Part shown: positions 5,217-63,285 of the stretch, one piece after another | Layout: each line of letters begins with the position of its first letter | How positions within the stretch are numbered: position 1 is the stretch's first letter | DNA from: Frigidibacter mobilis | Lineage (GTDB): Bacteria > Pseudomonadota > Alphaproteobacteria > Rhodobacterales > Rhodobacteraceae | Assembly: GCF_001620265.1 (NCBI RefSeq) | Contig: NZ_CP012661.1 | Location: 4,353,001-4,417,000 of the forward strand | Length of the DNA: 64,000 nucleotides | Reading direction: 5' to 3' | Position numbers and translations under genes: made by a program | The notes under the pieces: generated by a model | Told to the model about the DNA's origin: nothing | Seen by the model: only the letters and a program-made list of their open reading frames with translations | The model's database searches: none

Positions 5217-5232
5217 TCGAACAACCATTAGA
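5217..5232. promoter_or_regulatory. Predicted TetR operator, site 1
   Basis: TCGAACAACCATTAGA agrees with the regulon consensus TCTAACAATTGTTAGA at 12 of 16 positions and lies 25 bp upstream of the CoA-transferase start. A TTTGCT-17-TAGAAA promoter-like pair overlaps it. It is one of the weaker sites. Confidence 0.6.
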
Positions 5233-5256
5233 AAATTAGCAAAGTCGAAAGTGCAG

Positions 5257-6467
5257 ATGTCTGGACCCTTGATCAACTGAAGATTATAGAACTTGGTCAC
5301 GTAATTGCCGGACCACTTGCGGCAGCTTTACTCTCGGATTTTGGTGCAGATGTCATCAAGATCGAAGCCCCCAACCGGACGGATATGATGCGCGACCTTG
5401 GACCCAAGGCAGAGGATGGGGTGGGCGTCTGGTGGAAGACTTTGGGCCGCAACAAGAAAACACTAGGCCTGGACTGGAAGTCCGACGAGGGCCGGGACAT
5501 CCTGCGCAGGTTGGTTGAAGATGCCGACGTGCTGATCGAAAATTTCCGTCCGGGTGTGCTAGAACGTGCTGGTGTTGGGCCAGACGTCCTGCACGATTGG
5601 AACCCGGACTTGGTTGTCTTGCGGGTTTCAGGTTACGGACAGGACGGTCCGATGCGCGACGTGCCAGCGTTTGGACGTGCTGCGGAGGCCATGAGTGGTT
5701 TAGCACATCTGACCGGTTTTCCTGACGGGCCGCCGATGCACCCCGGGTTTCCGGCGGCTGACAGCACGACAGGGCTGATGGGCGCTTTGGGAGTCATGAT
5801 CGCGCTATTTGCTCGCGAAAAGGGCATTGCACGCGGTCAGGTCGTCGATCTTGCGGTGTTCGAGGCGTTGCTTCGGTTGATGGACTATCCTGTTCCCGCA
5901 TTGACGGGCGCGAACCTCTCGCCGCGGCGCAATGGGCTGCGCCAGCCGATGGACTTTGCTCCGGGGGGGATGTTCCGAACGTCCGATGGGGTGTGGCTGA
6001 CCGTTTCCGCAGGAAGCGCGGAAACCGCGCAACGACTGTTGCGGGCAGTCGGCGGGGACGCCCTTGCCGATGATCCGCGGTTTGCAACACTCGTCGAGAT
6101 GTCGCAGCACATGGCGGTGGTCTTTGACGCGATCAATGATTTTGTCACGCAGCGCACGGCTAAGGAAGTGGAGGCGGTATTCGCCCGCCATGATGCCGTC
6201 GCCTCGCGTGTGTTGAGTGTCGAGGAAATCACGACGAACGAGCAGATACGCCATCGCGGGGATATCGTGTCGGTCGCTGGCGAACAGACCCAGGTCATTG
6301 GTCCGGTCCCTCATCTCAGCGCGACGCCCGGTCAGCTTCGTTGGCTGGGACGACCGCCTGGCGCAGACAGTCAGAGCATTCTGCGTGATCTTGGTTTTAA
6401 CGATGAGCGGATCACTGCCCTGTGTGAGGCTGGGCTCGTAAGATTGGAAGGAGGGCGCGCGCTATGA
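5257..6467 (+). CDS. CaiB/BaiF family acyl-CoA transferase (one frame break near the start)
   Basis: Class III CoA-transferase, moving CoA between carboxylic acids through an aspartyl-CoA thioester. ATG 5257 (MSGP) fits the family N-terminus if one base is missing in the CCC run near 5266; the frame then reads LDQLKIIELGHVIAGPLAAALLSDFGADVIKIEAP. The corrected protein is about 403 aa. The family catalytic Asp lies in GFPAADSTTG at about residue 169, the position known for formyl-CoA transferase. The stop overlaps the next gene (ATGA), an acyl-CoA dehydrogenase, so the two are probably co-transcribed from the operator at 5217. Substrate unknown. Without the correction the first in-frame ATG is 5385, which would delete the conserved CoA-binding N-terminus. 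Confidence 0.85.
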
Positions 6468-7629
6468 CATTTCGATTGACCGCCGACCAACAAGAGATTC
6501 GCGACCAGATTCTGCGGATTTGTGCAAGGTTCGACGACGACTACTGGCTGGACCGGGATCGTAACGGTGGTTTTCCCCATGATCTGCACAGGGCAATGGC
6601 CGATGGCGGCTGGCTGGGTATCGCCATGCCAGAAGCTGTCGGCGGCGCGGGTCTGGGGATCACCGAAGCGACCATCATGATGCAGGCAATTGCCGAGTCG
6701 GGGGCCGGCGCAAGCGGCGCCTCGGCCATCCACATGAACATTTTCGGGCTCAACCCGGTGGTGAAGTTCGGGACCGATGAGCAGCGCGCGCGCATGCTTG
6801 GCCCGCTGATCGCGGGCGACGAAAAGGCCTGTTTCGCCGTGACCGAACCGACGACCGGGTTGGACACCACAAAGCTGAAGACCGTGGCGGTGCGGCGGGG
6901 GGACAGATATGTCGTGCACGGACAAAAAGTCTGGATTTCTACCGCGCAGGTGGCGGACAAGATGTTGCTTCTGGCCAGAACAACGCGGCTTGAGGATGTG
7001 AGCAGCCCGACCGAAGGGCTGAGCCTGTTCTATACAGATCTCGACCGAAATTTCGTTGACGTGCGAGAGATCGAAAAGATGGGTCGAAAGGCTGTCGATT
7101 CGAACGAAGTCTTCATCGATGGGTTGCCGATTCCGGCTGAGGACCTGATCGGGAGGAGGGCAAAGGCTTTAGACAAATTTTGCACGGGTTGAATCCCGAA
7201 CGCATCCTGGTGGCCGGTGAATGCATCGGTATTGCGCGCAACGCGCTGGCGCGCGCGGCACATTATGCAAACGAACGTGTGATTTTTGGCCGCCCGATCG
7301 GCCAAAATCAGGGTGTTCAGCATCCGCTCGCCAAAGCCTGGGCGCGGGTGGAATCTGCCAATCTCATGGTGATGCACGCTGCTGCCCTTTACGATGCGGG
7401 AGAGCCCTGCGGCGTCGAGGCGAACGCTGCCAAGCTTCTGGCTGCCGACGCCGCGGTCGAGGCGACCGAAGCCGCCCAGATCACATTTGGCGGATTCGGA
7501 TACGCCAAGGAATATCACGTGGAGCGCCTGGTACGGGAGGCTCTGCTGTTCCGGATCGTACCGGTGACACCGCAGATGCTTTTGTCATTCATAGCGGAGA
7601 AAGCCCTTGGGCTTCCAAAGTCTTACTGA
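6464..7629 (+). CDS. Acyl-CoA dehydrogenase (one frame break near 7157)
   Basis: FAD enzyme introducing an alpha,beta double bond in an acyl-CoA and passing electrons to ETF. The N-terminal part (MTFRLTADQQEIRDQIL...CFAVTEPTTGLDTTKL...GQKVWISTAQVADKMLLLAR) stays in frame to about 7157, where one G appears lost in the GGGAGGAGGG stretch. The C-terminal part resumes as LHGLNPERILVAGECIGIARNAL...ERVIFGRPIGQNQGVQHPLAKAWA...GGFGYAKEYHVERLVREA. Corrected length is 388 aa, normal for the family. GGFGYAKEYHVER carries the expected catalytic Glu. It overlaps the upstream CoA-transferase by 4 bp. Acyl specificity cannot be told from sequence. Confidence 0.87.
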
Positions 7630-7678
7630 TCGGAGATAACGGGCGCGGGCTACTGGGAAAAGTTGTCTTGACCATTTT

Positions 7679-7694
7679 TCTAACGAGCGTTAGA
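7679..7694. promoter_or_regulatory. Predicted TetR operator with overlapping promoter, site 2
   Basis: TCTAACGAGCGTTAGA is a palindrome with perfect six-base arms. It sits inside TTGACC-17 bp-TAGATT, a good sigma-70 promoter shape, so a bound repressor would cover the -10 box. It stands 40 bp upstream of the SDR and apparently heads the long transporter and ETF unit. Confidence 0.78.
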
Positions 7695-7734
7695 TTAATG
7701 TCAGCTACCCTAATGGGGAATGGGAGGAGGCGTC

Positions 7735-8588
7735 ATGAATAAGACGCAGTTCGGGTCTTCGAGGGAGGACCTGTCGAAACGTGCAACCGTTTACGCAAGC
7801 GGTTTATTCACAGGCAAAACCGTTGTCGTGACTGGTGCTGGAGGCGGATTGGGGCTGGCTATTGCGACCCTGTTCGCCAGGCTTGGGCCAATCTGGCGAT
7901 CAATGGACGTAACGAAGAGAAGCTGGCCTTGGCCAGGGAGTTCCTCGAGAGTTTCGGCGGCAGAGTTTTCGCTTTGCCCATGACCATCCGGGAACCTGAC
8001 CAGGTCGAGGATTTTGTCGCCAAGACGAACCAGGAATTCGGGGCAATTGACGTTTTGGTGAACAATGCTGGGGGTCAGTTTCCGCAAGCCGCGTTGGACT
8101 TCAGTCCAAAGGGCTGGAATGCGGTCATAGACACCAACCTCAACGGCACCTGGTGGATGATGCAATCCGCGGCGCGCCACTGGGTTGCCAACAAGCAATC
8201 GGGCTCCATCGTCAACATCGTGGCCGATATCTGGCGCGGCATGCCCGGCATCGCGCATACCTGTGCGGCCCGGGCAGGGGTAATTTACCTGTCCAAGTCG
8301 GTTGCGGTGGAGTGGGCCCCGCATGATATCCGAGTGAACTGCGTGGCGCCGGGTTGCTGCGAAAGCAACGGTTTCGGGAACTACCCTCCAGAGGGTTCTG
8401 CGACCTTTCAGGACTCCAACCCGATGCGGCATGCCGGGGACGAATGGGACGTCGCTGAAGGCGTTGTCTATATGGCGGCCAATTCAGGGAAATTCGTAAC
8501 CGGTGAAGTTCTGAACATCGACGGTGGGCAGCAATTGTGGGGGGATCCATGGCCAACGGGGCGACCGGATTACTTCCGGATTTCCTGA
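7735..8588 (+). CDS. SDR oxidoreductase, 2-enoyl/2,4-dienoyl-CoA reductase-like (one frame break)
   Basis: Short-chain dehydrogenase/reductase. The NAD(P) motif is KTVVVTGAGGGLGLAIA; then VLVNNAGGQFP, and GEVLNIDGGQQLW near the end. One G appears lost near 7888 (LGANLAINGRNEEKLALAREF when restored), giving 284 aa. The usual Tyr of the YxxxK motif is replaced: the segment reads HTCAARAGVIYLSKSVAVEWAPHDIRVNCVAPG. The same substitution occurs in peroxisomal trans-2-enoyl-CoA and 2,4-dienoyl-CoA reductases. I therefore favour an enoyl- or dienoyl-CoA reductase over a 3-hydroxyacyl-CoA dehydrogenase. ATG 7735 follows GGGAGGAGGC; an ATG at 7720 lies upstream of this ribosome site. Confidence 0.8.
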
Positions 8589-8625
8589 TGGTAGCCATGA
8601 ACGTCAGTGGGGGAAAAGTATTTAG

Positions 8626-9431
8626 ATGACAACGAAGCGTAAAACGGCCATGGGGACGATGGCCGGGCGATACTAGAGTGTAACGGGGTCGAACGACGGT
8701 TTGGCGGCATCGTCGCTGTCACCGGCGTGGATCTTGTCATTCGGCAAGGGGAAATCTTTGGGCTTGTCGGTCCGAATGGAAGCGGCAAGACAACACTAAC
8801 GAACGCAATTACCGGATTTTTCCCGCCAAACGAGGGCAAAGTCCGGCTGGCAGGAAAGGACATCACGGGCACGGCGCCTCACAAGGTTGCCAAGCTTGGG
8901 GTGGCCCGGACGTTCCAGAATCTTGCGCTGTTCAACGGGTTGAGCGTTCTGGACAACATCCTGCTCGGGCGGCACATCCACATGAGGCCAGGCGTTTTGC
9001 GCACGGCGCTTTATTGGTGGGCAGCACAGCGTGAAGAAATCGCGAACCGTAAAATCGTCGAGGAAGTGATCGAGTTTCTGCAGCTCGAAAGCATTAGACA
9101 TGAGTTGGTTGATGGTCTTCCGATCGGGTTAAAAAAGCGGGTCGAGCTGGCGCGGGCATTGGTTGCTGAGCCGCAGATGTTGATTCTCGATGAGCCGATG
9201 GCAGGCATGAATCAGGAAGAAAAGGGATACATGTCCCGCTTCATTCTGGATGCCCGGGCCGAACGTGGCGTGACCGTTCTACTCATCGAGCACCATATGG
9301 ATGTCATCACCGGCATTTGCGATCGGATGCTGGCCCTGAATTATGGTGAAATGATCGCCAGCGGCATCCCCAAGGAGGTTGTGAAGGACCCCCGGGTCAT
9401 CGAGGCATATATCGGAGGGTCGCATGACTGA
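8626..9431 (+). CDS. livG: Branched-chain-type ABC transporter ATP-binding protein LivG (frame break near start)
   Basis: One of two ATPases of a LivFGHMK-type importer. Walker A is GLVGPNGSGKTTL, the LivG-typical GVARTFQNLALF follows, the signature region reads LPIGLKKRVELARAL, Walker B is MLILDEPMAGMN, and the H-loop is LLIEHHMDVI. The N-terminus ILECNGVERRFGGIVAVTGVDLVI lies in frame only if one G is restored in CCGGGCG near 8667, which links it to ATG 8626 (268 aa). Signature LSGG is replaced by LPIG, as is common in LivG. It overlaps the downstream ligase gene by 8 bp. Confidence 0.87.
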
Positions 9432-11342
9432 TTTTACGAAGAACCGGTCTTCGGGCGGCGAAACGATTGGTGCACTTCTGGCGAAGAACGCGTCACTCCA
9501 CGGAAACGATATCGCCCTTCGCGAAAAAGAGCGCGGGATATGGAAAGAAACCACCTGGGCGGAATACGCCGATGAGGTGCTGGCCTGCGCGGCCGGACTT
9601 GAAAAAATCGGCGTGAAGCCGGGTAAAGCCGTGCTTATTCTGGGCGATAACCGTGCGCGGCTGTATGGTGGCATACTGGCTGTTTCGTTGCTGGGTGCCT
9701 ATGCAATGCCCGCTTATCCAGGCGCGACGCTTGAGGAACTCAGGCACTTTCTTGGCGAAGTCGAAATCGTCGCGGCGATCGCCGAGGATCAGGAACAGGT
9801 TGACAAGATCCTGGAACTGAAGGCCGCGGGCGCCGAGGGGATCGACCACATCATTTATGACGAAGCGCGGGGCCTTGGTTTCTATGAGGTCGAAGGGCTG
9901 ATGTCCTGGGATCACCTGATCGAAGTCGGTCAGCACGATCTGAATGAAGCCCCCGGCCTGCGCGAAGAACTCTATGGTCGGGCAACGCCCGCGATCCGGC
10001 CATTTTCATGCATTCGTCAGGGACAACGGGCAAGCCGAAAGGGATCGTTCTGAGTCAGAAGAACGTTCTTGCTGCGGCCAGGAACGGGCATGCAGCGGGC
10101 GCATTCGACGAAAACGAGGAGATCCTTGCGTACTTGCCGATGGCCTGGGTGGGAGACTACGCCATAACCGTTGCGGCGGCGCTGCTTTGGCGGTTCACCG
10201 TGAACGTGCCGGAGCGCCAGGAAACAGTCGTGCGCGACATGCGCGAGATCGCTCCGACCTTCTATCTGGCGGCGCCGAGAAGCTGGGACCAGATGCTGAC
10301 GACAATCCAGGTGGGTATCGAGAATTCGACCCCTTTCAAGAAATGGCTATACCATTTCTTCATGGATCGGGCCATCGCAGCTGAGACACGCAAGCTGAAC
10401 GGAAAAAGCGGTGGTATATTGGAGCCTTTGGGCAGGCTTTTGGGTGAGGTAATCGTTTTCGGTCCGATCAAGGACCAGTTCGGAATGAGCCGCCTCAAGA
10501 ACGCGTTCACCGGCGGCGAAGCGATCGGCGAAGACACCTTTGTTTTCTACCGAGCTCTTGGAATCAAGTTGCGCCAACTCTACGGCCAAACCGAAAACAG
10601 CGCGATCAATGCGATTCAGGCTCCGGGTGAAGTGCGCCTTCATACCGTTGGCAAACCCGCGCCGGGCGTCGAGGTGAAAATCGCCGAGGACGGGGAGATC
10701 CTGGTGCGCTCGGACAGCGTGTTTGAAGGGTACTTCAACAAACCCGAAGCGACCGCCGAAGCCCTTGAGGGCGGGTGGCTGCATACAGGTGATGCCGGGT
10801 ATCTGGAGGAAGATGGAAATCTGGTCGTTCTGGGGCGCGTCTCCGAGGTCATGCACACGGCCGGAGGCGAGCGTTATGTGCCAAACTACATCGAGAACCG
10901 GTTGAAATTCAGCCCTTACATTAAGGATGCGGCCGTAATAGGCGCCGGCCTTGACGAATTGACGGCCATGGTCTGCGTGGATTTCGAAGCGGTGGGCCAC
11001 TGGGCAGAGGTGAACGGCGTACCTTATGTGTCTTATGCCGATCTTTCTCAGCGTGAAGAGGTCGCGACGTTGCTTCGCGAGGCTTTCCAGCGGGTCAACA
11101 AGGTCGTCACAGAACCGTTGCGCCTGCAACGCTTTGTCAGTCTGCCGAAAGAATTCGACGCGGACGATGGTGAGATCACGCGAACCCGAAAACTGCGGCG
11201 GAAGGTCGTTCAGGAACGCTATGCCGACGTGATCGCAGCGCTCTACGACGGTTCAAAAGAGGTCCATGTCAGCGCGCAGGTGATTTACGAGACCGGGGAA
11301 GTGGGGAAGGTCGAAAGAATCCTTCCCATCAGGGAGGTATAA
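9424..11342 (+). CDS. Long-chain/branched acyl-CoA ligase, AMP-binding (one frame break near 9994)
   Basis: Activates a free carboxylic acid with ATP and CoA. The N-terminal half (IALREKERGIWKETTWAEYADEVL...GAYAMPAYPGATLEEL) is joined to the second half by restoring one G near 9994 (RATPADPAIFMHSSGTTGKPKG). The corrected protein is 639 aa. The P-loop HSSGTTGKPKG, the FTGGEAIGEDTF segment, LYGQTENS, and GWLHTGDAGYLEEDGNLVVLGR are the adenylate-forming family motifs in the right order. It is embedded between livG and livH, so the imported acid is probably thioesterified at once. Length and the TGDAGYLEEDG motif favour a long-chain-type ligase; chain length is inference. Confidence 0.9.
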
Positions 11343-12230
11343 ATGAACTGGGTTTTTCTAACAGAGCTTGCGGTCAACGGGGCGTTGACGGGTCTGCTAT
11401 ATTCGCTATTCGCCATCGGCCTTGTGCTGATCTACAAGGCATCCTCGGTTCCCAATCTGGCGCAAGGCGGACTGACAATGGCCGGGGCCTATGTGGTCCT
11501 CGCGTTGGCGCGCGACGTGGGCATGCCGCTTTGGGCCGCCATTCCGCTCGCCGCAGTCATCATGTTCGGCCTTGGGTTTGGTATTGAGCGTGTCGCTCTG
11601 CGCCGTCTCGCAGGTCGGCCGGTCGTCATGATCCTGATGCTGACACTTGGTCTCGACATTTTCCTGCGGGGTACGACGCTTGCGATCTGGGGCGGGACGT
11701 CGCGATCGATGGAGCTGGGCGTCAGCTATGATCCGCTGTTCCTGGGCGACATCTTCATCAGCCGCATCCATCTGGTTGGTGCCGGTGTTGCGCTCGGTCT
11801 GTTTGTCGCCTTCATGCTGTTTTTCCGAACCCGGACCGGGATCAAGTTGCGGGCGATCGCGGATGATTACATGGCTTCATGGTCGGTCGGTATCTCGGTT
11901 GAGCGCGGCGTTGGGTTGTCCTGGGCATTGGCATCTGTCGTTGCCGTCGCCGCTGGCGTCATCTGGGGTGAGATTCAGGGTGTCGATCAGGCGCTGTCGC
12001 TGTTGCTTCTCAAGGGTCTGACGGTTGCCGTTCTCGGTGGTCTCGACAGCATCCTGGGCGCGGTGATCGCGGGCATCATCCTGGGCGTCGTCGAAAACGT
12101 TGGCGCTGATTTCCTCGATCCGCTTGTCGGAGGCGGAAGCCGTGAGCTTATCGTCGCTGCCGTGCTCATTCTTACGGTCATGATCCGTCCGCACGGGCTG
12201 TTCGGTCGTCACGACATCGAAAGGGTGTAA
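11343..12230 (+). CDS. livH: Branched-chain-type ABC transporter permease LivH
   Basis: A 295-residue inner-membrane protein with about eight hydrophobic helices: GLLYSLFAIGLVLIYKASSVPNLAQGG, the LivH signature, then the conserved loop RTRTGIKLRAIADD and a final SRELIVAAVLILTVMIRPHGLFGR. It begins directly after the ligase stop with AGGGAGGT as ribosome site. Intact. Confidence 0.93.
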   Translation: MNWVFLTELAVNGALTGLLYSLFAIGLVLIYKASSVPNLAQGGLTMAGAYVVLALARDVGMPLWAAIPLAAVIMFGLGFGIERVALRRLAGRPVVMILMLTLGLDIFLRGTTLAIWGGTSRSMELGVSYDPLFLGDIFISRIHLVGAGVALGLFVAFMLFFRTRTGIKLRAIADDYMASWSVGISVERGVGLSWALASVVAVAAGVIWGEIQGVDQALSLLLLKGLTVAVLGGLDSILGAVIAGIILGVVENVGADFLDPLVGGGSRELIVAAVLILTVMIRPHGLFGRHDIERV

Positions 12231-12233
12231 GGC

Positions 12234-13307
12234 ATGTTTTATAGACTCTCCGGTGTACATCACGCCGACTATGTTTCGGACAGCCGTATCTTCAAGGTGC
12301 CTGCTGACAGGAATCTGACAGCATTCATCTTCTTGATTGGTCTTGCCGCGCCATTCATCATCCCGTCGCTTTATCTGAACAGCTACATGCTTCCGTGGCT
12401 GATCTGGACGGCCGCCGCGCTTGGACTGAACCTGGTGACAGGGTGGGCCGGCCAATTGCACTTGGGATATGCTGCGGTCATGGCCGTCGGAGCATATTCG
12501 GCGATCCATGCCGCGCGTTTCGGGGTGCCATGGGAATTCGCCCTGATCATTGGCGGGTTGACGTCATCTGTGATTGGCAGCCTGTTCGCTTTTGCCGCCT
12601 TGCGTGTCAAAGGGCTCTATCTCGCCCTTACGACTCTCGCTATGCAGTTCGTGATGGACTGGGTTCTGACCCACTCTCCGGCAATCTCGGGGGGCTCGCA
12701 CGCATCGCTCCAGTCACCGACATTGGCGCTGCTTGGACAAAAGATTACGTCTGACACTGGCTTTTACTATGTCGCCTTTGCTTGGTGCGTGTTGGTGACG
12801 ATGTTCATGCTCAACCTCAAGCGCACTGGGCTTGGCCGTGCCTTGGTCGCAGTGAGAGAAAAAGACTTTGCCGCCGCGATCTTGGGTGTGAACAGCTTCT
12901 ACTACAAGATTCTGGCCTTCGCGACTTCTTCTTTCATCGCGGGTGTCAGTGGTGCGTTGCTGGTCGCGACGTTCTTCTTTCTTGCTGCTCCCGAACAGTT
13001 CTCGGTTGCGGTTTCGATCCAGGTTCTTGCAATGGTGATCGTTGGCGGTCTTGGCAGTATCATCGGATCCTATTTCGGTGTTGCCCTGATCCTTCTTGTT
13101 CCCGGTCTGGTGAATGGTCTCGTCGTCGCGCTGAGCCAATGGCTTGGCGTGCAGATCGATGTTGAAACACTCGCTCACATCCCGAACGCAGTCTATGGCG
13201 CGCTCATCGTGATTATCCTTCTGATCGAACCACTCGGTTTGGGAAAGCTCTACGGCAACATCAGAGACTATCTGATGGTCTGGCCCTTCGATCAATTCAA
13301 GAAATAA
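12234..13307 (+). CDS. livM: Branched-chain-type ABC transporter permease LivM
   Basis: A 357-residue permease, partner of LivH. It has LNLVTGWAGQLHLGYAAVMAVGAY near residue 65, RVKGLYLALTTLAMQFV, the cytoplasmic RTGLGRALVAVREKDFAAAILGVN loop that contacts the ATPases, and AMVIVGGLGSIIGSYFG. It starts 3 bp after livH. Intact, with no frame problems. Confidence 0.93.
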   Translation: MFYRLSGVHHADYVSDSRIFKVPADRNLTAFIFLIGLAAPFIIPSLYLNSYMLPWLIWTAAALGLNLVTGWAGQLHLGYAAVMAVGAYSAIHAARFGVPWEFALIIGGLTSSVIGSLFAFAALRVKGLYLALTTLAMQFVMDWVLTHSPAISGGSHASLQSPTLALLGQKITSDTGFYYVAFAWCVLVTMFMLNLKRTGLGRALVAVREKDFAAAILGVNSFYYKILAFATSSFIAGVSGALLVATFFFLAAPEQFSVAVSIQVLAMVIVGGLGSIIGSYFGVALILLVPGLVNGLVVALSQWLGVQIDVETLAHIPNAVYGALIVIILLIEPLGLGKLYGNIRDYLMVWPFDQFKK

Positions 13308-13312
13308 GGGAA

Positions 13313-14127: not shown

Positions 14128-14160
14128 CGTACTATTCGGAAACTGTTCAGGGAGGAACAA

Positions 14161-15398: not shown

Positions 15399-15494
15399 AA
15401 GACTGGTAGCAGGAAGGGTGACGCTACGCGGGCGGCAGCGGCGCTTACGAAACGGTATCATCGCCCTAAACCCAAGCAATGGGAGAGAGAAAAC

Positions 15495-16744: not shown

Positions 16745-16823
16745 GACTGAGCTTCCCCGCGGCAACCATGTCGCGGGGAACCTTTCCGCAGTTGGATTGT
16801 CCCGAGAAAGCGAAGCAGGTATC

Positions 16824-17600: not shown

Positions 17601-17611
17601 TGGAGACTTGA

Positions 17612-18394: not shown

Positions 18395-18434
18395 ATCGGT
18401 CGAAACCATATCGCAAAACTCAAGGAGACCGTGG

Positions 18435-20285: not shown

Positions 20286-20301
20286 CAAAACACTTGTTAG
20301 A
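20286..20301. promoter_or_regulatory. Predicted TetR operator with overlapping promoter, site 3
   Basis: CAAAACACTTGTTAGA keeps the right half of the consensus perfectly (12 of 16 overall). It overlaps TTGTCA-17 bp-TAGATT, the same geometry as site 2, 40 bp upstream of the acyl-CoA dehydrogenase gene. Confidence 0.65.
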
Positions 20302-21508: not shown

Positions 21509-21535
21509 GCCGGGTGGGGCTATTCCCTACCCGGC
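21509..21535. terminator. Hairpin between convergent genes, possible bidirectional terminator
   Basis: GCCGGGTGGGG pairs with CCCTACCCGGC around a 5-base loop (one G-T pair). It lies between the dehydrogenase stop and the end of the minus-strand CoA-transferase. No long T run, so function is a guess. Confidence 0.5.
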
Positions 21536-51536: not shown

Positions 51537-51545
51537 CTTGAAGCC

Positions 51546-53142: not shown

Positions 53143-53146
53143 GTAG

Positions 53147-53802: not shown

Positions 53803-53818
53803 ACTAACGACCGTTAGA
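53803..53818. promoter_or_regulatory. Predicted TetR operator before the tetR operon, site 6
   Basis: ACTAACGACCGTTAGA, matching the consensus in both core half-sites. It is in the 5' region of the minus-strand tetR gene, which links the palindrome to this regulator. On the minus strand TTGACT lies upstream near 53858. Confidence 0.78.
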
Positions 53819-54787: not shown

Positions 54788-54811
54788 GTTGATTCCTCCC
54801 GAAAGGCGCTG

Positions 54812-55996
54812 TCAGGCTTTTTCATAAAGCGTGGTGACGCAGGCCCCGCCGAGGCCCAGATTGTGCTGAAGCGCCAGTCGCGCGCCATCGACCTGGCGCG
54901 CATCTGCCTGACCGCGAAGCTGCTGAACGAGCTCGGTACATTGCGCTAGGCCGGTCGCCCCAAGCGGATGGCCTTTGGACAAAAGACCGCCCGACGGGTT
55001 GGTCACGTATTTTCCGCCGTAGGTATTGTCGCCATCATCAACGAATTTCGCCGCTTCGCCGCGACCGCAAAGGCCAAGCGCCTCATAGGTGATCAGCTCG
55101 TTGTGGGCGAAACAGTCGTGCAGTTCGACCACATCCACGTCTTCGGGTCCGATGCCCGCCGCCTCGTAGACCTGATCGGCGGCGCGCTTGGCCATCGAAA
55201 AGCCGACCACTTCGCGCATGTCATGGGCTTCGAAAGTTTCCGGGCCGTCTGTTGTCATTGCCTGCGCCGCGATCCGAACGGAACTGTCCAGTCCGTGCTT
55301 GTCGGCGAATTCCTTGGAACAGATGATCGCCGCCGCCGCGCCACAGGTTGGCGGACAGGCCATGAGCTTGGTCATCACGCCCGGCCACACGACCTGGGCC
55401 GCCATGACGTCTTCAGCCGTCACCTCCTGCCGGAACAGGGCCACCGGATTCTTGGCCGCATGGCGGCTGGCCTTGGCGCGGATCTTGGCGAAGGTCTCAA
55501 GAGGCGTGCCGAACTCGTCCATGTGCGCCTTGCCCGCACCGCCGAAGTACCGCAGCGCCAGCGGAATCTCGGCGCTGCCAACCAGATCGTCGGTTTCTGC
55601 ATCGAAAGCCGCAAACGGGCTGACCCGATCATGGAACATCGCACCGATTGCGCCGGGCTGCATCTGTTCGAACCCAAGTGCCAGAGCACATTCAACCGCG
55701 CCGCTTTCAACTGCCTGCCGGGCTAGGAACAGGGCAGACGAACCGGTCGAGCAGTTGTTATTCACATTCAAAATCGGGATGCCGGTCATTCCAACATGGT
55801 ACAAGGCGCGCTGACCGCAGGTGCTGTCGCCATAGACATAGCCCACATAGGCCTGTTGGATTTTTCTATAATCCAATCCCGCGTCCGCCAGAGCGGACCG
55901 GGTCGCAGCGGTCGCCATCACATCGTAGCTTTCGGATTTTCCCGGCTTCTGGAACGGGACCATCCCGACGCCGGCGACATAGGCTTTGTCTGTCAT
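54812..55996 (-). CDS. SCP-x/lipid-transfer-type thiolase (acetyl-CoA acyltransferase)
   Basis: A 394-residue thiolase with the nucleophile intact: NVNNNCSTGSSALFLARQAVESG (Cys82) and the C-terminal NPSGGLLSKGHPLGATGLAQCTEL, plus GLGGACVTTLYEKA. The SCP2-thiolase branch handles branched 3-oxoacyl-CoAs, releasing acetyl- or propionyl-CoA. Start ATG 55996 has GGGAGAGAG upstream. First gene of a two-gene operon with the SDR. Confidence 0.93.
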   Translation of the reverse strand: MTDKAYVAGVGMVPFQKPGKSESYDVMATAATRSALADAGLDYRKIQQAYVGYVYGDSTCGQRALYHVGMTGIPILNVNNNCSTGSSALFLARQAVESGAVECALALGFEQMQPGAIGAMFHDRVSPFAAFDAETDDLVGSAEIPLALRYFGGAGKAHMDEFGTPLETFAKIRAKASRHAAKNPVALFRQEVTAEDVMAAQVVWPGVMTKLMACPPTCGAAAAIICSKEFADKHGLDSSVRIAAQAMTTDGPETFEAHDMREVVGFSMAKRAADQVYEAAGIGPEDVDVVELHDCFAHNELITYEALGLCGRGEAAKFVDDGDNTYGGKYVTNPSGGLLSKGHPLGATGLAQCTELVQQLRGQADARQVDGARLALQHNLGLGGACVTTLYEKA

Positions 55997-56047: not shown

Positions 56048-56063
56048 TCTACCACTTGTTAGA
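56048..56063. promoter_or_regulatory. Predicted TetR operator upstream of the thiolase operon, site 7
   Basis: TCTACCACTTGTTAGA, 14 of 16 matches to the consensus, 51 bp upstream of the thiolase start on the minus strand. Confidence 0.75.
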
Positions 56064-56270: not shown

Positions 56271-56880
56271 ATGGCGTATTGTTATGAATTCAGGGGTTTA
56301 TACCCGTTGTGCCGAGGATACTTATGTCCACCCTCGGGCCGTTCTGATCGGGAATGTCATCCTGGGTCATGGGTGCTACATCGGCCCCGGGGCAAGCCTG
56401 CGAGGCGATTTCGGCAGGATCGTGATCGGTGATGGCGCCAATGTTCAGGACAATTGCATCGTCCATTCCTTTCCCGGCCGCGATGCCGTGGTGGAAACCG
56501 ACGGCCACATCGGCCATGGCGCGATCCTGCACGGTTGCACAGTTGGCCGGAACGCTCTGGTCGGGATGAATGCCGTCATCATGGATGGCGTAGAGCTTGG
56601 GGCGGAATCGATTGTCGGCGCGCAGGCGTTTCTGCGTGGCGAAACCGTGATTCCGCCGCGTTCGATGGTGGTGGGATCGCCGGCAAAGGTGATCCGCGAG
56701 GTCAGCGAGAAAGAAATCGCGTGGAAAACGCGCGGCACCGCGGAATACCAGCAACTTGCGCGCGACTGTCTGGCCGGATTGACGCCGGTCGAGCCGCTGA
56801 AGGCGGTCGAGGCAGACCGGCCAGGGATGGCGGCCTCTGACGTCGTCTCCATTCAGGAGGCGCGGCGGACATCGTCCTGA
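56271..56880 (+). CDS. paaY: PaaY-like hexapeptide-repeat protein (gamma-carbonic-anhydrase fold, probable thioesterase)
   Basis: Left-handed beta-helix protein: [90 protein letters not shown], with the three metal-binding His regions, and [30 protein letters not shown], the PaaY/CaiE tail. PaaY is a thioesterase that removes dead-end acyl-CoAs in phenylacetate catabolism; here it may do the same. ATG 56271 follows AAAGGAAGAGAG and gives the family N-terminus ([12 protein letters not shown]), which rejoins the main frame only if two bases are missing near 56303 and 56311. Otherwise the start is 56284. Confidence 0.83.
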
Positions 56881-56991: not shown

Positions 56992-58599
56992 TTACAGACG
57001 GAAGATCCCGTAGTGCGGATCGTCGATCGGTGCATTGAGCGAGGCAGAAATCGACATGCCAAGCGCGTTGCGTGTGTCCGCCGGGTCGAGGATGCCGTCG
57101 TCCCACAATTCCGAGGTCGAGGTATAAGCCTCGACATCGCGCTTGTATTTTTCCAGCACCGGTTCGCGGATCGCGGCGATTTCTTCTTCGGTCAGCTCTT
57201 TGCCTTCGCGCTGAAGCTGCCGGATCTTGACGTCCGCCATGGTATTGGCGGCCTGATCCGCCCCCATCACGCCGATCTCGGCCTGGGGCCACATGAAGAG
57301 CGTGCGCGCGTCCCAGGCCCGTCCGCACATCCCGTAGTTGCCGGCCCCGTAAGACGCATTGGCGATCACTGTGAACTTCGGCACGACCGAGCCGCCCTGC
57401 GCCATCAGCATCTTGGCGCCGTCCTTGGCGATACCGCGTTCTTCGTATTCGCGGCCGACCATGTAGCCGGTGATGTTCTGGAAGAAGACCAGAGGCGTAC
57501 GGTTCTGATTGCAAAGCTGCATGAAATGCGCCGCCTTGAGCGAACTGTCGTTGAACAGCACCCCGTTGTTGGCAAGGATGCCGACCTTGTAACCCCAGAT
57601 ATGGGCAAAGCCGCACACCATCGTGGTGCCATAGTCCGGCTGGTATTCGTGAAAGCGTGAGCCGTCCACGATCCGGGCCAGAACCTCGCGCATGTCGAAC
57701 TGGGTTTTCCGGTCCTTTGGAATGATCCCGTAGAGTTCTTTGGGGTCATAGTAAGGCTCTTCATAGGCCGCGGTTTCGATGATCGTTTTCGGCGTGCGCT
57801 TCCACTGGCCGACAATCTCGCGGGCCAGTGAAAAGGCGTGTTGTTCGGTCGCGGCGCGATAGTCGCCGGTGCCCGAAACCGAGGTGTGCATGACCGCCCC
57901 GCCCAGTTCCTGAACGCCGACCTCCTCGCCGGTGGCCGCCTTGACCAGCGGCGGACCGCCAAGGAAAATCGCCCCCGTGCCTTCGATGATGATGTTGTAG
58001 TCGCTCAGCGTCGGCACATAGGCGCCGCCAGCCGTGCAGTGTCCGCCGACCACAGCAATCTGCGGGATATTGGCCTGGCTCAGCTTGACCTGGTTGCGGA
58101 ACACCCGCCCGCCCAGATACCGGTCGGGAAACACCCCGTGCTGCAGCGGCAGGAAACCGCCCGCGCTGTCGCAGATATGAATGACCGGCAGTCGGTTTTC
58201 CAAGGCGACGTCCAGAAGACGCACGATCTTTTTCACGGTATGCGGATACCAGGCACCGCCCTTTACGCTGGCGTCATTGGCATGAATGGCGACCTCGCGG
58301 CCCTGCACGATGCCGATTCCAGTTACCACGGCGGCGCCGGGCACCGCCCCGTCATATTCACGACAGGCCGCGAGGGTCGAAAACTCCAGGAACGGCGTGC
58401 CGGGGTCCAGCAACAGTTTTAGCCGTTCGCGCACGCCCAGTTTGTTCTGCCGCTCAAGGCGGTCGAAGTCGCGTTGCGGGCGTTCGAAGCGCGCCGCGTA
58501 CTGGCGGGCGTGAAATTCCTTCAGCCGTTCGGACATGGCAGCATAGTTTGCCTTGTAGTCGGCGGCATTGGTGTCGATCAGACTTTCGATCCTGCGCAT
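56992..58599 (-). CDS. Acyl-CoA carboxylase beta subunit (carboxyltransferase), second system
   Basis: A 535-residue, intact carboxyltransferase: RERLKLLLDPGTPFLEFSTLAACREYDGAVPGAAVVTGIGIVQGREVAIHANDASVKGGAWYPHTVKKIVRLLDVALENRLPVIHICDSAGGFLPLQ, GGHCTAGGAYVPTLSDYNIIIEGTGAIFLGGPPLVKAATGEEV, GNYGMCGRAWDARTLFMWPQAEIGVMGADQAANTM, ending LWDDGILDPADTRNALGMSIS. It resembles geranyl-/methylcrotonyl-type beta subunits. It ends the operon hydratase - AtuA - biotin carboxylase - BCCP - carboxyltransferase on the minus strand. Confidence 0.93.
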   Translation of the reverse strand: MRRIESLIDTNAADYKANYAAMSERLKEFHARQYAARFERPQRDFDRLERQNKLGVRERLKLLLDPGTPFLEFSTLAACREYDGAVPGAAVVTGIGIVQGREVAIHANDASVKGGAWYPHTVKKIVRLLDVALENRLPVIHICDSAGGFLPLQHGVFPDRYLGGRVFRNQVKLSQANIPQIAVVGGHCTAGGAYVPTLSDYNIIIEGTGAIFLGGPPLVKAATGEEVGVQELGGAVMHTSVSGTGDYRAATEQHAFSLAREIVGQWKRTPKTIIETAAYEEPYYDPKELYGIIPKDRKTQFDMREVLARIVDGSRFHEYQPDYGTTMVCGFAHIWGYKVGILANNGVLFNDSSLKAAHFMQLCNQNRTPLVFFQNITGYMVGREYEERGIAKDGAKMLMAQGGSVVPKFTVIANASYGAGNYGMCGRAWDARTLFMWPQAEIGVMGADQAANTMADVKIRQLQREGKELTEEEIAAIREPVLEKYKRDVEAYTSTSELWDDGILDPADTRNALGMSISASLNAPIDDPHYGIFRL

Positions 58600-58601
58600 G
58601 G

Positions 58602-59105
58602 TTACTCCTCTTCCGGGGCCAGCTGGGCGAGAACGGCCTTCAGCCCGAAACTGTCGCCTGTGGCAAATGGCATTTCGGCGACCACCCCGTCGCGCGGCGC
58701 GGTCAGGCTGGTCTCCAGCTTCATGCTTTCGATGACAAGAAGCGTCTGTCCTTCCCTGACCGCATCGCCCGGCTTCACCGCGATCAAGACCACAACCCCC
58801 GGCATCGGCGCGAGGATGCGGTCGTCGGCGGCACCGCCGTCGCTGGATGCCAAACGCTGGGCCGGATCGATCCGCCCGATCTCATGGGGCCGGCCATTCA
58901 GATGCACGAAGGTCGTATCCGGTCCGGCAGCAAGCCGGAGCCCGCGCACCGCGTCCCCTGCCCGAAGGACGTAGCCCCCCGGCACACCCGTCGGCTCCAG
59001 ACTGCAGGGAAGCGCGCCCTCGGGTGTGTGCAGCACGAACCGGCTGCCATCGTGGCCCAACCAGCATTCGATCTCAGCGCCGTCGATCTGAAAAATCCGT
59101 TGCAT
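58602..59105 (-). CDS. Free-standing biotin carboxyl carrier protein of the second acyl-CoA carboxylase
   Basis: A 167-residue protein with an N-terminal linker/BT-like part (QRIFQIDGAEIECWLGHDGSRFVLHTPEGALP) and a C-terminal biotinyl domain APMPGVVVLIAVKPGDAVREGQTLLVIESMKLETSLTAPRDGVVAEM; biotin Lys about 129. It is encoded separately from the biotin carboxylase, whereas most acyl-CoA carboxylases of this family fuse them (as the 48742-50745 gene does). ATG 59105 overlaps the biotin carboxylase stop (TGATG), with GGAGA upstream, so a simple gene split is likely. Confidence 0.9.
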   Translation of the reverse strand: MQRIFQIDGAEIECWLGHDGSRFVLHTPEGALPCSLEPTGVPGGYVLRAGDAVRGLRLAAGPDTTFVHLNGRPHEIGRIDPAQRLASSDGGAADDRILAPMPGVVVLIAVKPGDAVREGQTLLVIESMKLETSLTAPRDGVVAEMPFATGDSFGLKAVLAQLAPEEE

Positions 59106-60574
59106 CAGTTTCTCCACCCACCCATCTTGCGGTACATTTCCGGTATCTGCATTACATCACTCACCAGGCGCTCGTCCGATAGGGCCGCCGCCGCAATCAA
59201 CAGGTGGGACACATCCTCGCCCGGCGCGGTCAGCGTCTGGGCCTGCTCGCCCAAGAAGCTGGTCGAAAAGTTGCCTGCGGCAAAGTCAGGATGGGCAAGG
59301 ATCGCATCCAGGTAACCAGTGTTCGTCGTCACCCCGAGGATGACGTAGTTCCTCACGGCCTGTCGCGCGCGTGCGATGGCCTCGGGACGGTCGGCCCCAT
59401 GTACGATCAGCTTGGACAGCATCGGGTCGAAACCGGTCGTCACCTTGCCGCCGCTCAGAATGCCGCTGTCCACGCGCACGCCGGGGCCAGAGGGTTCGTC
59501 CAGCAGCAGGATATCCCCGATCGCGGGGCGAAAATCGGCCGTCGCGTCCTCGGCACAGATGCGCAGTTCGATAGAGTGTCCGTTCTGTGGAATATCCGCC
59601 TGCGCGGTGCTCAGCCCCTCGCCCGCCGCGATACGCAGCTGTTCGGCGACCAGATCGAAGCCGGTCACCAGTTCGGTCACCGGATGTTCGACCTGAAGGC
59701 GGGTGTTCATCTCCAGGAAATAAAAGGCCCCGTCCTGTGCATAGATGAATTCGACGGTCCCCGCCCCGCGGTATTTGACGGCACGGGCAATTCCGGCAGC
59801 GGTCTCGCAGATCTCATCCCGTTGCTCGGGGGTCAGCGCCGGTGACGGCGTTTCCTCGATGATCTTCTGGAACCGGCGTTGGATCGAACATTCACGTTCC
59901 CAGAAATGGACCACGTTGCCCTGTCCGTCGCCCATCACCTGCACCTCGATATGGCGCGGGCGTTCGATATAGCGTTCGACGAAAAGCCGCCCGTCGCCGA
60001 AATATCGTTCGCCTTCGCGTCGCGCGGTTTCGATTTCGGTCTCCAATGCGCTGTCCTCGCGCACGACGCGCATGCCCTTGCCACCACCGCCGGCCGACGG
60101 TTTGATCAGCAGCGGATAGCCCACGGCGCGGGCGCGTTCGACAAAGCTCGCCGGATCGTCATCCTCGATCGCCGAGGGTGCGACGGGAAATCCGCGTTCC
60201 TCGACAAAGGCGCGCGCTCGGACCTTGTCGCCCATCAGGTCGATAACCTCGGACGTCGGGCCGACAAAGGTCACTCCGGCTTTTTCCAGCGCCGCGACAA
60301 AACCGGCATTCTCTGACAGAAAGCCATAGCCGGGATGCACCGCGTCCGCGCCGATCCTTTCGGCGGCTTCGACAATCTGAGGAATATCCAGATAGGCGGC
60401 CACGGGCGTCGGGCCATCGATGGTCACGATCTCGTCGGCAATCAGGTGGGCGGGCCCCTTCTGCTCCGAGGTATGGCGCAGCACAGCCGTCGCAAGGCCT
60501 CGGGCCTTGGCGGTGCGCAACACGCGCGCCGCGATCTCACCCCGATTGGCGACCAGGAGTTTCGAAATGGTCAT
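59105..60574 (-). CDS. Biotin carboxylase subunit, second acyl-CoA carboxylase
   Basis: A 489-residue biotin carboxylase without a biotinyl domain: KLLVANRGEIAARVLRTAKARGLATAVLRHTSEQ, FVGPTSEVIDLMGDKVRARAFVEERGFPVAPS, LLIKPSAGGGGKGMRVVRED, RHIEVQVMGDGQGNVVHFWERECSIQRRFQKIIEETPSP, AFYFLEMNTRLQVEHPVTELVTGFDLVAEQLRIAAGEGL, then the C domain (SIELRICAEDATADFRPAIG). ATP-dependent carboxylation of the partner BCCP. Intact. Starts 12 bp after the AtuA-family stop. Confidence 0.94.
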   Translation of the reverse strand: MTISKLLVANRGEIAARVLRTAKARGLATAVLRHTSEQKGPAHLIADEIVTIDGPTPVAAYLDIPQIVEAAERIGADAVHPGYGFLSENAGFVAALEKAGVTFVGPTSEVIDLMGDKVRARAFVEERGFPVAPSAIEDDDPASFVERARAVGYPLLIKPSAGGGGKGMRVVREDSALETEIETARREGERYFGDGRLFVERYIERPRHIEVQVMGDGQGNVVHFWERECSIQRRFQKIIEETPSPALTPEQRDEICETAAGIARAVKYRGAGTVEFIYAQDGAFYFLEMNTRLQVEHPVTELVTGFDLVAEQLRIAAGEGLSTAQADIPQNGHSIELRICAEDATADFRPAIGDILLLDEPSGPGVRVDSGILSGGKVTTGFDPMLSKLIVHGADRPEAIARARQAVRNYVILGVTTNTGYLDAILAHPDFAAGNFSTSFLGEQAQTLTAPGEDVSHLLIAAAALSDERLVSDVMQIPEMYRKMGGWRN

Positions 60575-60586
60575 GGTGTCGTCCTC

Positions 60587-62385
60587 TTAGTTCGGGTTCG
60601 CGGCGTTCAGCCCGTCACGCGCGGCCAGGTCGGCCGGCACGGGAATTTCGATATCAAGCAGCATCTGCGCGAACCCTTTGCCTTGCGGATCGATGCGGAC
60701 CGAAGCGATGCCCCCCCCGCCCAGCGATTCATGCAGCAGGAAATTCAGCGAATGGCTTCCGGGCAGGTCGAACCGTTCGACCTTGCCTTCGCAGACATGG
60801 GCGAAATAGTCTTTCACCACCTCTTCGCTGAGAGCCGAGCGGATATATGGCAGGTAGTCCGGCTTGCGCGCGAGGATGCCGATATTGGCGATGTCCCCCT
60901 TGTCGCCCGAGCGGCCCCAGGCCAGATCGACGAGGCGGACCTTGACAGCGTCCGGACCGGGCTCGCGGCTATCTGCGGGCGGTGCGGTAGGCGGATCAAG
61001 GTGGACTGGCGTGGTGGCCACGCTCACGGCCACATCCTTGCCGTCGACCTCGACCGCGACGGGGGTCTCGGCCTTGCTCTGAAGGAAGGAGAACAGACGG
61101 ACCACCGGCTGCACCTTGGGCCGTCCGGCGAAGAACCCGGTCAGACCCTGCGCGGTCGAAATCGCCATCGGTGCGATTTCGCCGGCAAAGATGTTCAGCG
61201 CGGCGCGATCGTCATGGACCGCGCCGATCTTGAGCACCACCTCGCGGGTCCGGGCGCGCGCATTTGCCCCATAGGCCGCCTCGGCCCCCAGCACCTCGAC
61301 GCTGACCTGCCGGAAATCGCCCATGTTGCGGTCGCGGAAAATCCGGCGACAGCGGGTCAGGATCGCCTCGGCCACACGTTCGGCCTTGGCGGGTGCGTCA
61401 ATCGCGGCCAGTGTCAGGGTAGAGACCGCGCGCCAGCCATCGGCATGGGTCGCCGACACCTTGTAGCTGTCGGTGCGCCCAAGCCCCCTGCCGCCCTTGA
61501 CCAGCACCCGGTCGGGTCCAACCTGTTCCAGGGTGACCCCGGACCAGTCGCAGATCACGTCGGGCAACAGGTAGGCGCGCGGGTCCCCGATTTCATAGAG
61601 CATCTGCTCTCCGACTGACCCGGGCACGACCAGCCCGCCGGTGTCAGGCGTCTTGGTCATGATGAAACTGCCGTCTTCGGACACCTCGACGATGGGCATG
61701 CCCATATTGTCCCAACCCGGCACGTCCTGCCAGTCGGTGAAGTTGCCGCCGGTTCCCTGGGGGCCGCATTCGATCAGGTGGCCGGCCAGCGATCCCTGGC
61801 TGAGCTTGTCCCAGTCATTGTCGCCCCAGCCGTATTCATGCATCAGGGGACCAAGCGCGACCGCGCTGTCGGCGCAGCGTCCGGTGATCACGATGTCGGC
61901 CCCGGCATCCAGCGCGGCAGCGATGGGGCGGGCACCCAGATAGGCATTCATGCTCCAGATATCATCTGGAAATGCGACACCCGAGAACATTTCCGTCTGA
62001 CCGCTTTTGCGAATTTCATCGGCCCTAGGCAACAGGTCATCGCCCAGCACGACTCCGATGGACAGATCGACCCCGGCCTCGGCGGCGGCTTTGGCAAGCG
62101 CATCGCTGCAACCACGCGGGTTCACGCCCCCGGCATTGGCAACGACCTTGATCCCTTTTGCCTTGATATCCGGTAACCAGGGTGCCAGCGCCTTGACGAA
62201 ATCCGGCGCATAGCCCGACTCGGGCGCTTTGGCGCGGGCCCGCGCCATCAGCGACATTGTCACCTCTGCCAGATAGTCAAACACCAGATAGTCGATCTCG
62301 CCCTTTGAGACCAGTTGACCGATCGCTTCCGGCGTATCGCCCAGAAGCCCGATGCACATCCGATGCGCAGTTTTCGTTCCGACAT
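60587..62385 (-). CDS. AtuA-family (DUF1446) protein (one frame break near the start)
   Basis: A member of the acyclic terpene utilisation AtuA family; biochemical activity unknown in general, required for citronellol/geraniol growth in pseudomonads. True start ATG 62385: MSERKLRIGCASGFW, then one G restored near 62343 leads to GDTPEAIGQLVSKGEIDYLVFDYLAEVTMSLMARARAK. Corrected length 599 aa, as in the family. Further family stretches: VANAGGVNPRGCSDALAKAA, DIVITGRCADSAVALGPLMHEYGWGDNDWDKLSQGSLAGHLIECGPQGTGGNFTDW, and the C-terminal DLAWGRSGDKGDIANIGILARKP. Its presence beside a biotin-dependent carboxylase and a hydratase is the main argument for an isoprenoid-type substrate. Confidence 0.9.
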
Positions 62386-62407
62386 ATGCCTCTCCCTCCC
62401 CGCTTGA

Positions 62408-63193
62408 TCAGCGGCCCGTCCATTCAGGTTTGCGCTTCGCAATGAAGGCATCGAAGCCTTCGCGCGCGTCTTCGGTCTGCGCTACTCGCGGTAACAGTGT
62501 TTCTGCAAACCGCATCTGCTGCGGATAGGTCATGTCCTCCATCGCGTGACAAGCGTATTTTCCCAGCCGGATCGCGCTCGGCGACTGCGCAGCAATCTGG
62601 GCAACCAGTTCTGCAACCTTGTCGTCCAACCCCGCGGCATCTGTCACATAGTTGACCAGATTGAACTGCAGGGCCTCCTCGGCCGTCAGAGGAACGCCGG
62701 TGATGAACATCTCCATCAGCCTCCGCCGGGGCAGCACGCGCATCATGGGTGGCACGATCGTCATGGGAAACAGACCCACCTTCACTTCCGGCGTTCCGAT
62801 GCGGGCATGATCCGCCATCACAGCCAGATCGCAGGCACAGATGATGCCCGCCCCCGCCCCCATCGCGACGCCATTGATGCGCGCGATCGTTGGCTTTCGG
62901 CACGCCTGTATCGTCTCGAACAACCTTCCGGCAAAATGATCCGGGTCCGCCGGATCCTGAACAAACGGGCCGCCATCCGCCCCCGCCTTGATGTCGCCCC
63001 CGGCACAGAAGGCGCGCTCGCCCTCGCCGGTCAGAACGATCACGCGGCAATCGCTGTCCCTCTCGGCGGCATATATGGCGGCCATGATCCCGTCCGCGAC
63101 CTCACGGTTGAGGGCATTTCGATTATCAGGACGTCGAATCGTGATACGCACTTCTTTGCCGAGCGCCTGCGATTGAACAACGCTCTCAGTCAT
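62408..63193 (-). CDS. Enoyl-CoA hydratase (AtuE-like by context)
   Basis: A 261-residue crotonase: VRITIRRPDNRNALNREVADGIMAAI, VIVLTGEGERAFCAGGDIKAGADGG, INGVAMGAGAGIICACDLAVMADHARIGTPEVKVGLFPMTIVPPMMRVLPRRRLMEMFITG, ending FIAKRKPEWTGR. ATG 63193 is preferred over 63214 because GGGGGAGC lies about 8 bp upstream. It is first in the five-gene carboxylase operon and probably hydrates the carboxylated enoyl-CoA; exact substrate is inferred from neighbours only. Confidence 0.9.
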   Translation of the reverse strand: MTESVVQSQALGKEVRITIRRPDNRNALNREVADGIMAAIYAAERDSDCRVIVLTGEGERAFCAGGDIKAGADGGPFVQDPADPDHFAGRLFETIQACRKPTIARINGVAMGAGAGIICACDLAVMADHARIGTPEVKVGLFPMTIVPPMMRVLPRRRLMEMFITGVPLTAEEALQFNLVNYVTDAAGLDDKVAELVAQIAAQSPSAIRLGKYACHAMEDMTYPQQMRFAETLLPRVAQTEDAREGFDAFIAKRKPEWTGR

Positions 63194-63269
63194 TTCCGAA
63201 GCTCCCCCCTGCATTCAGGACACCGCGCTTTCTTACGTCAGGTCGTCAAAAGCTTGGCTTGATCTATTT

Positions 63270-63285
63270 TCTAACATGTGTTTGA
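63270..63285. promoter_or_regulatory. Predicted TetR operator in a divergent promoter, site 8
   Basis: TCTAACATGTGTTTGA, 13 of 16 matches, between the minus-strand carboxylase operon and the plus-strand acyl-CoA dehydrogenase. On the minus strand TTGACC-16 bp-TAGAAA overlaps it. Confidence 0.72.

Follow-up and report, generated by a model that had tools for sequence, protein, structure and literature searches.

The stretch analysed here, referred to as the window, comprises 64,000 nucleotides of Frigidibacter mobilis (C1:4353001-4417000, in a genome of 4,987,611 bases on four contigs). It carries transcription units of an acyl-CoA pathway, a gene for a stand-alone TetR-type repressor, and eight copies of a palindrome, TCTAAC-N4-GTTAGA (core CTAAC-N4-GTTAG), termed O1 to O8 (Table 1). 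Together with their continuations elsewhere in the genome, the units encode an ATP-binding cassette (ABC) importer, several CoA ligases and CoA transferases, acyl-CoA dehydrogenases, hydratases, thiolases and an electron-transfer flavoprotein (ETF), as well as AtuA, three methylcrotonyl-type carboxylases and a hydroxymethylglutaryl-CoA lyase (HMGL)-like protein. Counting adjacent genes in the mapped units, whose operon membership is presumed, the pathway comprises about 55 genes. A preliminary description of the window had proposed that a single TetR-type protein represses about ten such units as a self-contained regulon. On the sequence evidence below, the palindrome is probably the operator of a small TetR family that governs an acyl-CoA regulon of about ten units, with two paralogous repressors, the stand-alone TetR and a tandem protein of two fused TetR units, sharing the operator.

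Operator sites in the window and the genome

All eight 16-mers named in the preliminary description are present at the positions given there. Compared with TCTAACAATTGTTAGA, two are exact (23902 and 27563) and the others match at 12-14 of 16 bases, with two mismatches at 56048, three at 7679 and 63270, and four at 5217, 20286 and 53803. At most three mismatches are found at five window sites, against 0.02 expected, and none of 100 dinucleotide shuffles contained five or more. When the weight-matrix scan suggested as a check is run with 35 sites from the relatives G203, G207, G249 and G269 (no F. mobilis site used), the eight sites take ranks 1-8 of the window, with scores falling from 30.5 to 13.3 bits. 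Rank 9, at 41091 within an insertion sequence (IS) cluster, reaches 10.8 bits, and we dismissed this candidate because the best of 20 shuffled windows scores 12.3. Ten other F. mobilis loci, five of them fetched as two-mismatch matches, were scanned with the same matrix; the top score, 12.9 bits, belongs to one such match (L015, C1:3133265). The site at 5217 is marginal by itself, barely above noise, and the orthologous position in G207 is exact. The distance from operator to the nearest fitting ATG is 13 to 55 bp; the lower end of the range first reported (13 to 51 bp) holds, the upper end does not.

Genome-wide, the full palindrome occurs seven times and the core nine times, compared with about 2.4 core copies expected at the base composition of the window and two in a backward-read control. 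Rather than being scattered at random over the genome, the outcome that the preliminary description had set against its own proposal, all nine core copies precede units of the acyl-CoA pathway, six on contig C1 (core starts 4296620, 4360680, 4376903, 4380564, 4406804 and 4422701) and three on contig C4 (19383, 49578 and 53236). Outside the window, exact 16-mers lie at C1:4296619, C1:4422700, C4:49577 and C4:53235, and a core-only copy at C4:19382. Operators lie as far as 56 kb beyond the left end of the window and 6 kb beyond its right end, with others on contig C4, and the chromosomal copy of the pathway is broken in large part (see below), so that "self-contained" does not describe this regulon. 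At C1:4296619, a 2,4-dienoyl-CoA reductase-like gene is divergent from dehydrogenase, hydratase, ligase, carboxylase and HMGL-like genes; at C1:4422700, the tandem TetR gene is divergent from genes for a short-chain dehydrogenase/reductase (SDR), an acyl-CoA synthetase and an NmrA-like protein. At the two-mismatch level, 21 genome sites are found, 12 of them at regulon positions, but the backward-read control (158) exceeds the real count, which makes this genome count uninformative.

We rejected a chance origin of the sites on the dinucleotide shuffles, the held-out matrix and the genome count. The wider proposition that the palindromes arose by chance or serve another role, as attenuator stems, mobile-element ends or targets of an unrelated regulator, would fit the low scores at 5217 and 20286 and the occurrence of TCTAACATATGTTAGA next to an unrelated TetR gene elsewhere. 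It is nevertheless highly improbable, being disfavoured by the shuffles, the genome-wide confinement of the core, the positional conservation and the co-occurrence with regulators.

Conservation of the operator and its two candidate repressors

Within the stretches fetched from relatives, operators precede orthologous units in G203, G207, G249, G269, G003, G184, G258, G274 and G318. Those of G238 deviate by one change or retain only the core, and in several relatives O1 and O3 each differ by two changes. For O4, O5, O8, O9 and O10 (7 to 11 copies each), all 60 of 60 half-site columns are invariant, compared with 8 of 20 in the centre and 123 of 300 in the flanks. Even the off-consensus GTTTGA of O8 is kept in 10 of 10 copies. 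Close to the O7 orthologue, about 80 bp away on the side of the hexapeptide-repeat gene, G203, G207, G249 and G258 carry an extra, weaker operator copy; the window near O7 holds no comparable match.

The stand-alone TetR of the window matches both TetR-family domain models, PF00440 (5e-18) and PF17932 (3e-16). Its gene had been called the only TetR gene, which is correct for the window but not for the genome, where a second tetR, 86% identical, lies on contig C4. In a tree of 30 hand-chosen rows, the C1 protein groups with those of Labrenzia, Shimia, Heliomarina, Amylibacter and one Ruegeria strain (support 100/99), and the C4 protein with those of Nioella and Paracoccus solventivorans (support 100/96). 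The tandem TetR gene, which in F. mobilis is frame-broken (L027, 4292-5620), lies 4-6 kb outside the window behind an exact operator; with two TetR units per chain, its product is predicted to have an Mce3R-like fold. The putative recognition helix reads KAGSIYYHF in the stand-alone protein and EAGSIYYHF and KAGSVYYHF in the tandem units.

Both regulators track the operator across genomes. In an order sample of 292 genomes, a TetR homologue (E <=1e-40, best 10 candidates per genome scored) was found in 13 and at least three exact sites in 11. The latter occur in 10 of the 13 genomes with the TetR and in 1 of the 279 without it (Fisher p 3e-15, for genomes that are not independent). A tandem TetR (best 5 candidates per genome scored) is present in 10 of the 292, precisely those with the TetR and at least three exact sites. 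A second sample of 22 further TetR-bearing genomes, one of which also belongs to the order sample (G035 = G356), includes 17 with a tandem and 1 to 6 exact sites (two with just one); the five without a tandem have 0-1. The three TetR-bearing genomes of the order sample that lack a tandem among the candidates scored (G035, G125 and G230) contain a homologue 50-56% identical, which heads a tetR-carboxyltransferase-hydratase-biotin carboxylase-dehydrogenase operon. G035 has a site with an exact core before this tetR, and G125 and G230 each have one with a single change; none of the three genomes contains an exact 16-base site anywhere.

The sites associated with the two genes differ in form. Among the best 80 of 171 TetR homologues (97 to 55% identical), 77 have an exact core close to tetR and the remaining three have one core change; the extended form GTTAG[T/G]TA is seen in 71 of the 80. 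In 11 of 12 tandem loci, a subset of 20 matches found, an operator with at most one change lies 43-45 bp before the gene, the twelfth locus ending at a contig end. An exact tandem site is present in 10 of the 11 genomes read in the conservation stretches and in 6 of 12 loci of the tandem-locus set. At window positions 53803-53825 and in orthologues, an overlapping wider palindrome, CCTAAC-N8-GTTAGG, is seen in 40 of the 71 extended-form loci; it perhaps accommodates two dimers or discriminates between both repressors.

These data bear on how control is divided. It is unlikely that the stand-alone TetR alone binds all ten promoters, with the tandem controlling something else or just sensing a second ligand. 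The family can use the site, as indicated by L106-L108, whose homologues (55-58% identical, no tandem found in these genomes) have an exact consensus site before tetR, and in F. mobilis the tandem is broken whereas both stand-alone genes have open frames. However, a TetR without a tandem is never found with several exact sites (all three such genomes in the order sample and all five in the second sample have 0-1), and the extended form predominates at tetR whereas the tandem's own site is often exact. The opposite division, in which the tandem TetR acts at the dispersed sites and the stand-alone protein is limited to its own carboxylase operon via CCTAAC-N4-GTTAGTTAGG, would fit the tandem tracking the TetR with at least three sites in 10 of 10 genomes, the distribution of exact sites among the 22 further genomes and the mostly different flanks of the TetR's own site. 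It remains doubtful, since near-identical putative recognition helices and five shared core bases per half-site make exclusive binding unlikely, and the sites of F. mobilis, those on C4 included, are intact although its tandem is broken.

We favour two repressors sharing one operator. The confinement of the core, the placing of sites shortly before genes, their position-by-position conservation and their co-occurrence with the regulators are read directly from the sequence; confinement, conservation and co-occurrence argue strongly for a TetR-type regulon of about ten units, as first proposed. Control by a single TetR, a proposal made without sight of the tandem gene or the C4 copy, both of which lie outside the window, is less supported, because 3 of the 13 TetR-bearing genomes, those without a tandem, have no exact site.

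In three cases, namely 7679, 20286 and the minus side of 23902, the spacer between a -35-like hexamer and TAGATT, 17 bp apart, is taken up by the operator, and one half-site overlaps the -10 region; the fit is weaker at the other sites, and each promoter reading is a best-of-scan consensus match taken without a control. The stand-alone TetR would bind the operator as a homodimer and an intact tandem TetR as an intramolecular pseudo-dimer, in the arrangement of Mce3R. The bound repressor would sit between -35 and -10 or cover them, shutting out RNA polymerase, and an acyl-CoA intermediate would release it, which could turn on all units of the pathway at once. An acyl-CoA is the likely kind of ligand, judging from the pathway and from the analogous AibR and FadR. 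These two TetR regulators, also of acyl-CoA pathways, have the fold in common and, according to their PDB titles, were solved with isovaleryl-CoA (AibR) and stearoyl-CoA (Bacillus subtilis FadR). Originally, the stand-alone TetR may have acted locally, repressing only the carboxylase operon that it heads, and the regulon may have grown with a duplicated, fused paralogue as the operator spread. We give an even chance to this fuller scheme, in which both repressors compete for or jointly guard about ten promoters, opening of the pathway requires ligand in both kinds of pocket, and a local autorepressor became a regulon through duplication, fusion and operator spread. In F. mobilis, with its tandem gene frame-broken, the two stand-alone TetRs (C1 and C4) would remain in charge.

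Several observations weigh against the shared-operator reading. The p-value for half-sites versus flanks (8e-21) is a guide only, as the operator copies in relatives were located using the motif itself and come from genomes related to one another. In one genome, G310, four exact sites and several units are present with no TetR or tandem TetR among the best candidates scored, which could reflect a draft gap or a real loss; with 10 TetR and 5 tandem candidates scored per genome, genes may also have been missed. Since Mce3R binds non-palindromic DNA, a palindromic target is not a given for a tandem TetR, and the tandem structure model was built on four sequences, with a pLDDT of 73. A promoter scan of 53600-64000 returned four promoter-like sites, one of them over O8, against 2.3 expected. 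Finally, 11 other genomes carry exactly one exact site, none of them with a TetR homologue at E <=1e-15. In the six inspected, five sites lie between a TetR_C_33-type TetR and an HlyD-type membrane-fusion gene and one is intragenic. An unrelated TetR and its HlyD-type neighbour thus share the palindrome, and the motif alone cannot name the regulator. In these five loci (L154, L155, L157, L158 and L159), the palindrome between the two genes reads TCTAACATATGTTAGA, with ATAA in the middle in L159.

The analysis supplies a testable operator, a regulator pair and a target list for the pathway. If both repressors share the operator, genomes with TetR alone, with TetR and tandem, and with a broken tandem form a natural series, in which one may ask how a local repressor becomes a regulon and what a tandem TetR adds.

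Comparison with known TetR-type systems

KstR, of mycobacterial cholesterol catabolism, has the operator TnnAACnnGTTnnA with a 2-bp spacer (PMC1995591, in excerpt). As in the KstR regulon, so far as that excerpt describes it, a short palindrome with AAC/GTT half-sites lies partly over the -10 region at many dispersed lipid-catabolism promoters, and one TetR is autoregulated, both binding and autoregulation being predicted here. Unlike KstR, the window regulator belongs to a different TetR subfamily and has a tandem paralogue alongside. Identity with KstR was rejected on the spacer (4 versus 2 bp) and on the family model (23.2 bits versus an NCBIfam cut-off of 280). No steroid-ring genes occur among the annotated genes, no search aimed at such genes having been made.

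Mce3R of Mycobacterium tuberculosis is a double TetR (PDB 9b7y) with asymmetric, non-palindromic 25-bp sites (PMC11667970, in part). It is the top PDB sequence match of the stand-alone TetR and the top fold match of the tandem model, which it resembles almost end to end. The two TetR units in one chain and the lipid-pathway regulon are common to both systems, going by the same portion of PMC11667970; however, the candidate sites here are palindromic and do not fit the asymmetric Mce3R operator, from which the palindrome before the tandem gene in 11 of 12 loci also points away, and every tandem-bearing genome of the 292-genome survey also has a stand-alone paralogue.

BkaR (Rv2506) of mycobacteria is, in the sections of PMC3920632 available, an autoregulated TetR repressor of a carboxylase/acyl-CoA dehydrogenase/hydratase operon, to that extent like the regulator proposed here. 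Its operator, GTTA(N)T(N4)A(N)TAAC, has everted half-sites and was rejected as a match, and its regulon comprises essentially one operon and one further gene. PsrA, LiuQ and FadP provide further cases of TetR control of acyl-CoA breakdown in regulons of several operons, LiuQ and FadP being unique to beta-proteobacteria among the genomes covered (PMC5343134, in extract). The window TetR scores 53.1 bits against an NCBIfam cut-off of 300 for PsrA, a model of Vibrio PsrA that may not represent other genera, and LiuR is MerR-type (same extract of PMC5343134), whereas the window regulator is TetR-type; the preliminary description had not recognised the operator from PsrA-, AtuR- or LiuR-type regulators. 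No AtuR model is among the family-model matches of the window TetR. Among the open-licence literature matches listed, those of one search being mostly irrelevant, we found no description of the operator, of AtuA pathways in this group or of tandem TetRs in Proteobacteria.

Pathway units and their broken chromosomal copy

Table 1. Operators and genes of the window (positions in the window; ECH, enoyl-CoA hydratase; BCCP, biotin carboxyl carrier protein)
Feature	Position	Strand	Remarks
O1, weak operator (12/16)	5217..5232		before CaiB-type CoA-transferase and acyl-CoA dehydrogenase unit; orthologous position in G207 exact
CaiB-type CoA transferase, acyl-CoA dehydrogenase	5257..7629	+	both frame-broken; Pfam; ATG at 5257
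O2, operator with exact half-sites	7679..7694		before SDR/ABC importer/FadD/ECH/ETF unit; TTGACC-17-TAGATT around site
SDR, branched-chain-type ABC importer, FadD, two binding proteins, two ECH, etfBA	7714..20119	+	broken: SDR, FadD, one ATPase, one binding protein
O3, operator with one degenerate half-site	20286..20301		before acyl-CoA dehydrogenase
Acyl-CoA dehydrogenase	20341..21498	+	
Two CaiB-type CoA transferases	21520..23865	-	
O4, exact operator	23902..23917		between divergent units
OB-fold protein, SCP2-type thiolase, MaoC hydratase, CaiB	23970..27530	+	
O5, exact operator	27563..27578		before transglutaminase-like unit (27592..34752)
Transglutaminase-like protein, MaoC-like, two acyl-CoA dehydrogenases, ECH, PaaK-like ligase	27592..34752	+	transglutaminase-like protein truncated; second dehydrogenase IS-split
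Transposase (DDE_Tnp_1_4)	30294..31649	-	inserted in second acyl-CoA dehydrogenase
Acyl-CoA dehydrogenase, biotin carboxylase/BCCP, ECH, carboxyltransferase	47579..53193	-	methylcrotonyl-CoA-carboxylase type; carboxyltransferase split into three pieces
TetR repressor (TetR_N + TetR_C_24)	53147..53776	-	first gene of carboxylase operon
O6, operator of tetR itself	53803..53818		core CTAACGGTCGTTAG exact on minus strand; extended form GTTAGTTAGG
Thiolase-like protein, SDR	53957..55996	-	
O7, operator with one half-site change	56048..56063		hexapeptide-repeat gene divergent from O7
Hexapeptide-repeat protein	56284..56880	+	divergent from O7
ECH, AtuA, biotin carboxylase, BCCP, carboxyltransferase	56992..63214	-	
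O8, operator	63270..63285		between divergent units; off-consensus GTTTGA
Acyl-CoA dehydrogenase	63327..64000	+	first gene of unit extending past window

Of 57 reading frames compared with G203, in the window and the flank to its right, 14 are broken, some of them antisense shadows. About ten are real broken genes, namely those for CaiB, an acyl-CoA dehydrogenase, SDR, FadD, an ATPase, a binding protein, the transglutaminase-like protein, the IS-split acyl-CoA dehydrogenase, a carboxyltransferase and the tandem TetR. They lie at 5257-15398, 27571-32691 and 51549-53142 of the window and at 4292-5620 of L027. Judged from the assembly rather than from reads, sequencing error is an unlikely cause, because the pathway genes examined on C4 and in L026 have full length by comparison with relatives and the breaks fall mainly at 5-16, 27-32 and 51-53 kb and in the tandem gene. 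No second FadD copy was found genome-wide (next best 45%), and the pathway may therefore be incomplete in this strain. Contig C4 (139,976 bases), probably a plasmid judging by its size, carries full-length paralogues of the O4 unit, the O5 unit and the O6 tetR-carboxylase operon, each with an operator (L028 and L029); they include one of the carboxyltransferase that is in three pieces in the window. Upstream of the C4 tetR, a stump of the SDR gene persists.

The carboxyltransferases score better against methylcrotonyl- than against geranyl-CoA carboxylase. From its genes, the pathway would degrade a methyl-branched, possibly terpenoid, acid. With an operator at each unit, the extent of the pathway can be traced by the motif, which may also aid the search for the substrate. 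At 56992-60574, a methylcrotonyl-type carboxylase is encoded beside AtuA, with biotin carboxylase and BCCP as separate genes. The adjacent CaiB pair, OB-fold protein and thiolase at 21520-25502 resemble the benzylsuccinate CoA-transferase and benzoylsuccinyl-CoA thiolase set.

Besides Rhodobacterales, some further Alphaproteobacteria and one Marinobacter possess the regulators and the operator. The latter, the gammaproteobacterium Marinobacter aromaticivorans (L072), carries three exact sites and encodes both a tandem TetR and a TetR of 83% identity, a combination suggestive of horizontal transfer.

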